This document shows, piece by piece, positions 415-6,258 of a DNA stretch of 64,000 nucleotides. The notes under the pieces are model-generated. The model searched no databases. It was not told where the DNA came from and saw nothing but the letters and a program-made list of their open reading frames with translations. The position numbers were made by a program, and so were the translations under genes. The DNA lies in assembly GCF_001424045.1 (NCBI RefSeq), contig NZ_LMQB01000027.1, positions 151,399 to 215,398 on the forward strand, written 5' to 3'. This stretch comes from Rhizobium sp. Leaf371 (GTDB lineage Bacteria; Pseudomonadota; Alphaproteobacteria; Rhizobiales; Rhizobiaceae). Each line of letters starts with the position of its first letter. Within the stretch, counting starts at the first letter, position 1.

Positions 415-1884
415 TCAGCCCATCTGGCTGCCGACGAAATCCTTGACGATGCGGATGATGCCGCGGCCGAGGAGGTCGTCGAGCGCGTCGACGAACTGGT
501 CGACATGCTTGCGTTCGCAGATCAGCGGCGGCTCGAGCCGGATGACGTTGCGATTATACTCAGTAAAGGCGACGAGCGTGTCGTAATCCCGCAAGAGCAG
601 CGCGCCGATGAAGCCGGAGAGCGAGCCCTTGAGCTTGTCGTCGAGCATGCCGATGACCGGGCGCAGGACCAGCGGCATCGTCTGGCTGAAATCCTGGAAC
701 TCGAGCCCAACCATGAGGCCCTGCCCGCGAACCTCCTTGATGATCTTCGGGTATTTTTCGCGCAGGGCGTCGAGACGGGCGAGCAGGTAGGCCCCCTGCT
801 CCGCCGCGTTGTCGATCAGCGCCTCGTCGTACATGATGTTCAAGGCTTCGATCGCGGTGACGCAGGCCTCGCCCATGCCGCCGAAGGTGGCCATCGCGTG
901 GATCATCGCCGTCTTCGGCGTTCCATAGGCCTTCATGTAGATCTCGCGCCGGGCGATCATGGCGCCAACGGCCGCCTTGCCGCCGCCGAGCGACTTGGCA
1001 AGCGCCGTGATATCCGGCACGACATTCTCGTGCTCGAAGGCGAAGAAGCGTCCGGAACGGCCGTAGCCGCACTGGACCTCATCCGCGACCCAGACGACGC
1101 CATAGCGATCGCAGAGCGCACGTAGCTCCTTCCAGAAGCCATCGGGCGCCCGGATGATGCCGCCGCCGCCCTGAATGGTTTCGAGCACGATCGCTCCGAT
1201 CTGGGGATCGCTTCGGAAAGCGCTCTCGATCGCCTCGATATTGCCGAAAGGCACCCGGACGGTATTGCCGGAGACCGAGAAGTCGGCCCGGTAGAGTGCG
1301 CCGTCGGTGATGTTCAGCACGCCCTTCGTCTTGCCGTGGAAGGAATTTTCGGCATAGACGACCTTCGGCCGCTTCGGGCCGGCCGCGCGCTCGGCGAGCT
1401 TGACGGCGGCTTCCATCACCTCGGAGCCGGACGAGCCGAGGAACACCATGTCGAGATCGCCGGGCGAAATGGTCGCGAGGTTCTTCGCAAAAGCCGCCGC
1501 ATATTGCGACATGAAGGCGATGGCGATCTCGTGGCGGTTTTCGTCCTGGAAGCGCTTGCGCGCCTCCAGCAGGCGCGGATGGTTGTGACCGAAGGCGAGC
1601 GATCCGAAACCGCCGAAGAAATCGAGGATCTTCCGCCCGTTCTGGTCGGTATAGTACATGCCCTCGGCGCTCTCGATCTTCACCTTGTGAAAACCGAGCA
1701 GCTTCATGAAGTGGAGCTGGCCCGGATTGACGTGATCCTTGAACAGGGTGGTCATTTCCGGAACGGTCAGGGCCTTGGCGTCCTCGACCGTCAGAAGATC
1801 GGGCTTTCCGACCCGCGTGCGGACGGGCTGCGGGCCTTCGATGGCGGGCGCGTCGATCAGGACGCGGGCGGGCGTATCGAGCAT
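415..1884 (-). CDS. Class III PLP-dependent aminotransferase
   Basis: A 489-residue fold-type I aminotransferase of the acetylornithine/GABA/aminomutase class. The phosphate-binding SSGSE segment lies near residue 151, the PLP aspartate at D268 in VADEVQCGYGRSG, and the Schiff-base lysine at K297 in ALAKSLGGGK. It is the last gene of a five-gene operon, 15 bp after the SDR gene. The neighbours resemble an enzyme set that makes a keto-pentose on a polyprenyl phosphate, so a sugar-ketone acceptor is possible, but this is inference. Class III enzymes more often use omega-amino substrates, and the sugar aminotransferases I know of are mostly DegT/class V, so the substrate remains open. Confidence 0.85.
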   Translation of the reverse strand: MLDTPARVLIDAPAIEGPQPVRTRVGKPDLLTVEDAKALTVPEMTTLFKDHVNPGQLHFMKLLGFHKVKIESAEGMYYTDQNGRKILDFFGGFGSLAFGHNHPRLLEARKRFQDENRHEIAIAFMSQYAAAFAKNLATISPGDLDMVFLGSSGSEVMEAAVKLAERAAGPKRPKVVYAENSFHGKTKGVLNITDGALYRADFSVSGNTVRVPFGNIEAIESAFRSDPQIGAIVLETIQGGGGIIRAPDGFWKELRALCDRYGVVWVADEVQCGYGRSGRFFAFEHENVVPDITALAKSLGGGKAAVGAMIARREIYMKAYGTPKTAMIHAMATFGGMGEACVTAIEALNIMYDEALIDNAAEQGAYLLARLDALREKYPKIIKEVRGQGLMVGLEFQDFSQTMPLVLRPVIGMLDDKLKGSLSGFIGALLLRDYDTLVAFTEYNRNVIRLEPPLICERKHVDQFVDALDDLLGRGIIRIVKDFVGSQMG

Positions 1885-1899
1885 GTTGAACGGTCCCTC

Positions 1900-4816: not shown

Positions 4817-6258
4817 CAGATGCCGACCGCCCCGATCATCACGAGCACCCCGCCCGCAGCCATGGTGGCGATGCTGCGCCAGTCGCGCATGATGAAGACG
4901 ACGGGATCCTCGTGCAGACTGCCGCGCCGGGCGAGCATCCAGATGCGCAGCAGCATGTAGAGGACCATCGGGCAGAGCGGCCAGAGCGCGGCCGGCATGC
5001 TGTACATCTGCTGCATCTCGACGCTGTGGATGTAGAGCGCCAGAACCAGCGCGGATGCGAAGGCGGAGGATATGCCCGCCTGCCCGACCATCTCGAAATC
5101 GACCTGCATATAGCCGCGTCCCGGAACCTGGGCGCGGGCCTCGCCGCCATGCTCGTCCAGCTCCACATAGCGTTTCACCAAAGCGAGGCTGAGGAAGAAG
5201 AAGATCGAAAAGGCAAGAAGCCAGAAGGACAGCACCGTTTCGGTCGCCGTCGCGCCGGCGATGATCCGGATGGTGTAGAGACCCGCCAGCGTGAAGACAT
5301 CGACGAGAAGTTTTCGCTTGAGAAAGAATGTGTAAGCCGTGGTTATCGCGAGATATATTCCGAGCGTGACGACGAACTCGCCGGGCATTCGCAGCGTCAG
5401 TGCGGCTGCTGCCAGAAGGAGGCTCGCCGCCAGCGCCAGACCGGTCGGCAGGGACATGCGGCCGCTTGCAAGCGGGCGGAAACGCTTTTTCGGATGGCGG
5501 CGGTCGTTCGTCAGGTCGGAGATATCGTTGATGACATAGACGGCCGATGCGAGAAAGCTGAAGGCGAAGAAGGCGATGACCGTGTTGATCAAGGCCGCCC
5601 GATCGAGGATGTCGTGATCGAGCGCCATCGGCACGGCGATCAGGATATTCTTTGCCCATTGATGGACGCGTATGGATTTCAGCGTGTCTTTGAGCCCGCT
5701 CGTACCGGTCTCCAGATGCTCTGCATCGTGGCGGCGGCGCCAGGCTTCGGCTGCGCGGTCCGGCGCGACGACGATGGCTTTGCGCGCGGCGTCGAACACC
5801 GGGACGTCATCGCGGCTGTTGCCCATGTAGTCGAACCCCGCATCGCCGTAGCGCGCGACCAGTTCCCGGCACTTGCGATGGCGCGTCAGGTTGTGGGTGC
5901 GGGAGGAATGCAGGACTTCGGTGAAGACGCCGGTATGGGCCGCGACATCGAGCGCCACCCGCTCCGCGGCCCCGGTGACGAGCACGACGTCGCGACCGGT
6001 CTCCCGCTCCTGCCGCAGCCGCGCGATCACCTCCGGGCGATAGGGCCAATCGGCACCGGTGCGCCCGGATCGTACGGCGACCTCATGTTTCAGATGCGCC
6101 TTGCCGCGCAGTGCCCAACGAAGGAGCGCGAACACCATCAGCGGATTGCGGAACAGCAAAACGGCGACGCCTTCCCACAGCGTGTCCGCCGCGACGAGCG
6201 TCCCGTCCAGATCGACGCAAAGCGGAACAAGCCGTGTGTCGGTTCGCGCATCCATCAT
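4816..6258 (-). CDS. HAD phosphatase-UbiA prenyltransferase fusion (polyprenyl-phosphate phosphoribosyltransferase type)
   Basis: A 480-residue two-domain protein. Residues 1-180 form a HAD phosphatase with DLDGT (16-20) and GNSRDD (146-151). Residues 190-480 form a multi-spanning UbiA prenyltransferase whose aspartate motif NDISDLTNDRRHPKKR (244-259) closely resembles decaprenyl-phosphate 5-phosphoribosyltransferases such as mycobacterial Rv3806c. The likely reaction is PRPP plus polyprenyl phosphate giving polyprenyl-phospho-5-phosphoribose, with the HAD domain removing the 5-phosphate. It is the first gene of the operon. From memory, a related UbiA protein, NoeC, acts in arabinosylation of Azorhizobium Nod factors. 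Confidence 0.85.
   Translation of the reverse strand: MMDARTDTRLVPLCVDLDGTLVAADTLWEGVAVLLFRNPLMVFALLRWALRGKAHLKHEVAVRSGRTGADWPYRPEVIARLRQERETGRDVVLVTGAAERVALDVAAHTGVFTEVLHSSRTHNLTRHRKCRELVARYGDAGFDYMGNSRDDVPVFDAARKAIVVAPDRAAEAWRRRHDAEHLETGTSGLKDTLKSIRVHQWAKNILIAVPMALDHDILDRAALINTVIAFFAFSFLASAVYVINDISDLTNDRRHPKKRFRPLASGRMSLPTGLALAASLLLAAAALTLRMPGEFVVTLGIYLAITTAYTFFLKRKLLVDVFTLAGLYTIRIIAGATATETVLSFWLLAFSIFFFLSLALVKRYVELDEHGGEARAQVPGRGYMQVDFEMVGQAGISSAFASALVLALYIHSVEMQQMYSMPAALWPLCPMVLYMLLRIWMLARRGSLHEDPVVFIMRDWRSIATMAAGGVLVMIGAVGI

Follow-up and report, generated by a model that had tools for sequence, protein, structure and literature searches.

A rhizobial five-gene operon that may build a lipid-linked amino-pentofuranose from phosphoribosyl pyrophosphate

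What sugar is assembled by an operon that places a UbiA-type enzyme and a DprE1-like oxidase beside a class III aminotransferase? Such an operon is found in Rhizobium sp. Leaf371, in a 64,000-nucleotide (nt) stretch of contig NZ_LMQB01000027.1 (hereafter the window, in which all positions are counted), where the genes for a HAD-UbiA fusion, a DprE1-like oxidase, a small EamA/SMR protein, an extended short-chain dehydrogenase/reductase (SDR) and a class III aminotransferase follow one another on the minus strand between positions 415 and 6258. The original prediction, made from the letters of the window alone, had placed the five genes on one strand and assigned the proteins to these families; the strand was confirmed and Pfam and NCBIfam agree with the names. 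Our analysis suggests, with somewhat better than even confidence, that the product is an amino-pentose, whichever carbon is aminated. The more specific reading that we favour, in which the operon makes a polyprenyl-phosphate-linked amino-pentofuranose aminated at C2, is held at slightly under an even chance. Tentatively, and with a little more reserve, we propose the wider scheme, in which DprE1 would be paired with a class III aminotransferase in place of DprE2 and the two would yield a lipid-linked 2-amino-2-deoxy-pentofuranose across Rhizobiaceae and scattered relatives. An Arn-like decoration would then have been invented twice, here from phosphoribosyl pyrophosphate (PRPP), and would have a flippase to itself and GT-C transferases of either of two families.

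Gene presence was scored by tblastn in 101 genomes of the Rhizobium family, with a threshold of E ≤ 1e-100 for the aminotransferase. The aminotransferase was present in 54 of the 101 genomes, and 46 of these 54, the window genome included, share the gene order of the operon, with all five genes on a single strand. The other eight depart from this arrangement in several ways: DprE1 lies off the locus in G042, G037 and G088, the SDR is absent from G019, contig ends interrupt the locus in G089, and the SMR-SDR-aminotransferase genes stand apart from UbiA in G046, G095 and G082 (loci L103-L105). HAD-UbiA is found in all 54 aminotransferase genomes versus 5 of the 47 others (the total of 59/101 omits weak UbiA-only matches in G029, E = 4.6e-4, and G038, E = 6.0e-4). 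Among the named loci, which are the best 80 of 414 SDR relatives and were fetched by the SDR, 74 have all five genes in order and 4 are without DprE1; one of the remaining two holds SMR-SDR-aminotransferase and the other is a cut locus with SDR-aminotransferase. The linkage of the five genes is far beyond chance, and UbiA, DprE1 and the aminotransferase are the most constant members of the set. Outside the family the set is rare. Among the 249 genomes of an order sample, 8 from other families matched the aminotransferase; the SDR was in 2 of 288 other genomes of the class, and 7 of 398 genomes of a phylum sample gave matches, all within this order. A search of plasmids returned one with the aminotransferase, from Neorhizobium sp. 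SOG26.

In other families the set, where present, is often retained in a rearranged form, as at L107, L113, L115, L118 and L119. L107 (4687-9847; G305, from another family of the class) has SMR-SDR-UbiA-DprE1-aminotransferase on one strand, with a DprE1 of the ordinary type described below and a UbiA match without the HAD half. L113 consists of UbiA-DprE1-aminotransferase only, with the aminotransferase directly after DprE1 and no SMR or SDR at the locus. The set is split into divergent halves in L115, and DprE1 has moved in L118 and L119. Downstream of the aminotransferase in L115 (4587-8857; G425) lie a GMC-type oxidoreductase, a second oxidase at that locus, and two multi-helix proteins that we read as flippase- and ligase-like. 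SMR and SDR matches (38-39%) also adjoin one another, without aminotransferase or DprE1, at L108 (9386-10722) in the 1.6-Mb genome G291.

The HAD-UbiA fusion scored 583.7 bits against the NCBIfam model PRK08238 (cut-off 351) and 151.8 bits against the NCBIfam model for decaprenyl-phosphate phosphoribosyltransferase (cut-off 207), while the ubiquinone and haem models gave 27 bits. Its only PDB matches, 8j8j and 8j8k, are both named decaprenyl-phosphate phosphoribosyltransferase. UbiA residues N244, D245, D248, D252, R363 and E366 are found in every one of 76 rows, drawn from 70 distinct loci, and the HAD half (Pfam HAD, 32.8 bits) retains D16 in 71 and D18 in 70 of the 76. Kelly et al. 2024 demonstrated that Citrobacter youngae ORF15, also a HAD-UbiA fusion, makes farnesyl-phospho-ribose (m/z 435) from PRPP; the six UbiA residues changed in that study are matched in the window protein at a constant offset of 3, and the R366A and E369A mutants stayed active while the other four residues mattered (PMC11127046). 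With scores, solved structures and residues all of the phosphoribosyltransferase kind, a lipid-linked pentose is a likely and well-supported prediction for the output of HAD-UbiA. To this extent the lipid-linked pentose of the original prediction stands; a plain arabinose is less supported and would leave the aminotransferase without a job. An ordinary ubiquinone or haem prenyltransferase, in a cluster unconnected to sugars, was rejected on the model scores and the PDB matches. The operon protein does belong to the broad Pfam UbiA family, but the phosphoribosyltransferase model stands at 152 bits versus 27 for the ubiquinone and haem models, and the genome holds two further UbiA-family members with far stronger matches (204 and 202 bits versus 81 for the operon protein). 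We regard this identity as extremely improbable. Grouping with such prenyltransferases, which the original prediction had named as evidence against itself, was not seen in this comparison, which used model scores and not a tree.

The DprE1-like oxidase scored 344.7 bits against NCBIfam DprE1, under the equivalog cut-off of 500, and 233 bits against the PDB DprE1 structure 4aut, and its GKNH motif and KD lysine are conserved. Once overlapping loci are discounted, the aminotransferase loci provide 60 DprE1 proteins, of which 57 have T374, N403 and Y405; among the remaining three, those of L107 and L113 carry A, Y and A at these positions and one is truncated. A, Y and A also occur in seven DprE1 proteins that are DprE2-linked or unlinked (the ordinary type). 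Alignment with 4aut places position 374 at a cysteine of mycobacterial DprE1, which we take to be the benzothiazinone cysteine, and position 405 immediately before the KD lysine, presumably the catalytic lysine of DprE1. In a midpoint-rooted DprE1 tree, which omits seven overlapping loci and the truncated L054, 58 of 59 aminotransferase-locus proteins fall on one side of a branch with support of 100/96, L107 being the exception. Judged by its sequence, the operon oxidase is a special form of DprE1. That T374, N403 and Y405 are required to work with the aminotransferase fails as an explanation, as the ordinary type accompanies the same aminotransferase in G042, G037, G088, G095 and G082 and at L107 and L113. 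Since the ordinary type serves in those five genomes, the three altered residues are not essential, and this pairing suggests the same 2-keto product.

DprE1 itself is present in all 54 aminotransferase genomes, adjoining a UbiA gene in 51 (a divergent one in G095 and G082) and lying elsewhere in the genome in G042, G037 and G088, with 43-46% identity. DprE2 was sought with PRK07102, the best-matching model of the SDRs that adjoin DprE1 in L092, L095 and L098. At E ≤ 1e-40 this model matched in 3 of the 101 family genomes, two of them with the aminotransferase (G071 and G095), so that only 2 of the 54 aminotransferase genomes have a match; the window genome gave none at this threshold, which a divergent reductase could escape. 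Where DprE2 is missing, some other enzyme has to consume the product of DprE1, and the candidates in the operon are the SDR and the aminotransferase.

The aminotransferase matches Pfam Aminotran_3 with 281 bits. All 67 rows, from 65 distinct loci, keep its DEVQ motif and K297; FTEYNRN is invariant. Matches to putrescine aminotransferase and to the best PDB relative stop at residue 398, and beyond it lies a conserved, partly hydrophobic stretch (about 401-430) that, as a guess, faces the lipid. The extended SDR (Pfam Epimerase, 123.6 bits) has GGxGxxG and YxxSK in 62 of 63 rows and is not of the DprE2 type, which falls to adh_short and not to Epimerase. It has the motifs that Kelly et al. give for C. 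youngae ORF13, which turns lipid-linked ribose into xylose by a change at C3 (PMC11127046). No SDR homologue at E ≤ 1e-20 was found in G019, G544 or G565, which retain UbiA, DprE1 and the aminotransferase, and on this gene content we favour the aminotransferase as the enzyme that follows DprE1. The SMR protein is EamA in Pfam; its nearest NCBIfam models are ArnF (56.7 bits, cut-off 99) and ArnE (40.5 bits, cut-off 92).

Which enzyme would use the donor? The original prediction saw no glycosyltransferase gene next to the operon, and this is true in the window, though many relatives have a candidate there. Two GT-C-like families, c6 and c7, often adjoin the operon in relatives and occur in 54 of 54 aminotransferase genomes versus 2 of the 47 others. 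The loci behind their profiles came from 33 aminotransferase genomes; with these source genomes left aside, the counts are 21 of 21 versus 2 of 47. The predicted folds of c6 and c7 are GT-C-like, with ArnT among the best fold matches. The window genome has a c7 gene on another contig, whose neighbours there gave no hint of the acceptor. The glycosyltransferase missing from the surroundings of the operon probably exists, as a likely GT-C enzyme encoded elsewhere in the genome. At L055 (845-1597), and likewise at L060 and L067, a protein that we read as an FkbM-like methyltransferase comes after c6 and is a possible modifier of the sugar after transfer or of the acceptor.

Relatives of the operon offer other combinations of the same parts. 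UbiA without DprE1 at the locus adjoins GT-C-like genes in L091, L094 and L097, an arrangement that would fit ribose. L091 (9003-12515; G084) and L097 (6956-10393; G069) each encode HAD-UbiA and a GT-C-like protein of ~590 residues (c72), with a distant SMR match and no DprE1 or aminotransferase at the locus, and look like minimal three-component systems for ribofuranose. L092 (8915-17711; G047), where UbiA-DprE1-DprE2 is followed by three tandem GT-C-like open reading frames, two aligning with c7, has the look of a system for arabinofuranose served by several transferases. Next to these possible ribose and arabinose sets of the same family, UbiA-DprE1-aminotransferase would give a third product, an amino-pentose.

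The pathway that we propose would begin with HAD-UbiA, which, by its characterised homologue and shared residues, would move phosphoribose from PRPP to polyprenyl phosphate and remove the 5-phosphate. The DprE1-like flavoenzyme would oxidise the ribose, most likely at C2 as its relation to DprE1 implies, and the class III aminotransferase would turn the ketone into an amine, replacing the DprE2 reduction that gives arabinose, as gene content suggests. The extended SDR, which is absent from a few genomes, might set the stereochemistry or supply another keto position. The ArnE/F-like SMR protein would then flip the product across the inner membrane, and a GT-C enzyme of one of the two families would attach the amino-pentose to an envelope molecule. 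In the full text of open PMC papers, which leaves subscription papers uncovered, we found no lipid-linked amino-pentose made by this route.

Several points weigh against this pathway. Known sugar-ketone aminotransferases are mostly of another class, and class III aminotransferases favour aldehydes, pointing to C5. The class III relatives with a solved structure are enzymes for putrescine, acetylornithine and the like, among which no sugar-lipid enzyme was recognised. The SDR, present in nearly all loci, could consume the ketone instead; the PRK07102 search could miss a divergent reductase, and G095 and G071 carry DprE2 besides the aminotransferase. The co-occurrence counts are not corrected for common descent, and the fold match of c7 is below ~13, which the tool gives as its safe level for helical proteins. 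If the amine were instead placed at C3, on a ketone made by the SDR, or at C5, on an aldehyde, a 3- or 5-amino-pentofuranosyl lipid would result with the rest of the pathway unchanged. Class III aminotransferases often use aldehydes, and in 57 of 60 aminotransferase loci the DprE1 pocket departs from the ordinary type at positions 374, 403 and 405; the ORF13-like motifs of the SDR, those of a C3 enzyme in the C. youngae text (PMC11127046), also agree with this placement. However, the same aminotransferase works beside an ordinary DprE1, to judge by gene content, in five genomes, and three genomes lack the SDR; we consider amination at C3 or C5 unlikely.

In an arabinose model along the lines of the original prediction, the extended SDR would take the place of DprE2 and, with DprE1, give polyprenyl-phospho-arabinofuranose, while the aminotransferase would, for example, prepare the acceptor. 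UbiA and DprE1 are indeed the arabinose set of mycobacteria and noeCNHOP in the published accounts (PMC2443382, PMC5080398), and the SDR occurs in at most 53 of the 54 aminotransferase genomes (it is absent from G019 and unseen in G089, where contig ends break the locus). Yet this SDR is of the Epimerase and not the adh_short kind, UbiA, DprE1 and the aminotransferase persist without it in G019, G544 and G565, and in L113 the aminotransferase comes directly after DprE1, and we hold arabinose to be as improbable as amination at C3 or C5. Less probable again are two units that merely adjoin, UbiA-DprE1 for a pentosyl lipid and SMR-SDR-aminotransferase for an unrelated exported product. The two groups are separate in G046, G095 and G082, and UbiA and DprE1 are less conserved than the SMR, SDR and aminotransferase proteins. 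UbiA and DprE1 are, however, retained elsewhere in each of these three genomes, none of the 101 family genomes has the aminotransferase without HAD-UbiA, and L107 and L113 mix both halves.

The arrangement of the operon in the window is summarised in Table 1. The UbiA and DprE1 genes share one base (TGATG) and the SMR and SDR genes share 4 bp (ATGA), so that only the latter of two predicted 4-bp ATGA overlaps is correct; the predicted gaps, 125 bp between DprE1 and SMR and 15 bp between SDR and the aminotransferase, are both right. The closing terminator of the prediction was found as a hairpin with a T-run at 388-360; terminator-like sites are not enriched across the region (4 found versus 5.1 expected). 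Upstream of the operon are a hydrolase-like gene (6383-7279) and a divergent gene that we read as a type II topoisomerase subunit. The hydrolase-like gene has the same place before the operon in the nearest relatives, and is found in L103, where UbiA-DprE1 is absent; its position probably reflects synteny with the topoisomerase gene and not a role in the pathway. The closest SDR relatives, among the best 80 of 414, are from Rhizobium sp. NFR03, Rhizobium sp. PP-CC-3A-592 and Ferranicluibacter rubi (95-96%), which places the host in the Rhizobium family.

Table 1 Features of the operon, in window positions
Feature	Position	Strand	Remarks
HAD-UbiA fusion	4816..6258	-	480 aa; predicted polyprenyl-phosphate phosphoribosyltransferase with its own 5-phosphatase
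DprE1-like FAD oxidase	3479..4816	-	445 aa, start confirmed; predicted keto-pentose maker
EamA/SMR protein	2913..3353	-	146 aa; predicted flippase
Extended SDR, epimerase/dehydratase type	1900..2916	-	338 aa; predicted substrate, lipid-linked sugar
Class III aminotransferase	415..1884	-	489 aa; predicted keto-pentose amination
Terminator-like hairpin, 13 pairs then CTTTTTC	360..388	-	3' of the aminotransferase gene

If the amino-pentofuranose reading is true, an amino sugar joins the known polyprenyl-phospho-pentofuranose donors ribose, arabinose and xylose, and DprE1 is able to feed an aminotransferase rather than a reductase. An unreported envelope amino-pentose would be expected in carriers of the set, for example relatives of Ensifer adhaerens, Nitratireductor, Hoeflea and Aureimonas, and c6 and c7 are named as the likely users of the donor.

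The C. youngae ORF12-ORF15 system resembles the operon in its HAD-UbiA for polyprenyl-phospho-ribose and its auxiliary enzymes that alter the pentose on the lipid, as those of the operon are predicted to do; its small flippase (ORF14, likened to ArnE) and its GT-C transferase may have counterparts in the SMR protein and the c7 candidate (PMC11127046). The main text of that paper gives an epimerase or DprE1/E2 as the auxiliary enzymes of three-component systems and mentions no aminotransferase or amino sugar, whereas the operon here has an aminotransferase; its GT-C gene is in the same locus, whereas our candidate is on another contig (PMC11127046). Closer in host are the noeCNHOP genes of Azorhizobium and Rhizobium sp. 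IRBG74, in which UbiA-type and DprE1-type enzymes feed a glycosyltransferase, as they would here. As their published descriptions have it, these genes lie with nod genes and add arabinose by a mycobacteria-like route, which bears out the role in Nod-factor arabinosylation that the original prediction gave to noeC (PMC2443382, PMC5080398). Our operon differs by its aminotransferase, extended SDR and SMR protein, and the window genome gave no DprE2 match. The mycobacterial decaprenyl-phospho-arabinose pathway (Rv3806c, DprE1/DprE2, Rv3789, Emb/Aft) has a phosphoribosyltransferase, DprE1, an SMR-type flippase and GT-C users, all with predicted counterparts in the window genome; here a HAD phosphatase is fused to UbiA, DprE2 is replaced or missing and an aminotransferase is added. 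The Arn (L-Ara4N) system is alike in that the operon would carry an amino-pentose on polyprenyl phosphate, its SMR protein is nearest to the ArnF/ArnE models, and ArnT is among the best fold matches of c6 and c7. The Arn pathway builds its sugar on UDP before transfer to the lipid, whereas the operon described here would build it on the lipid, from PRPP.

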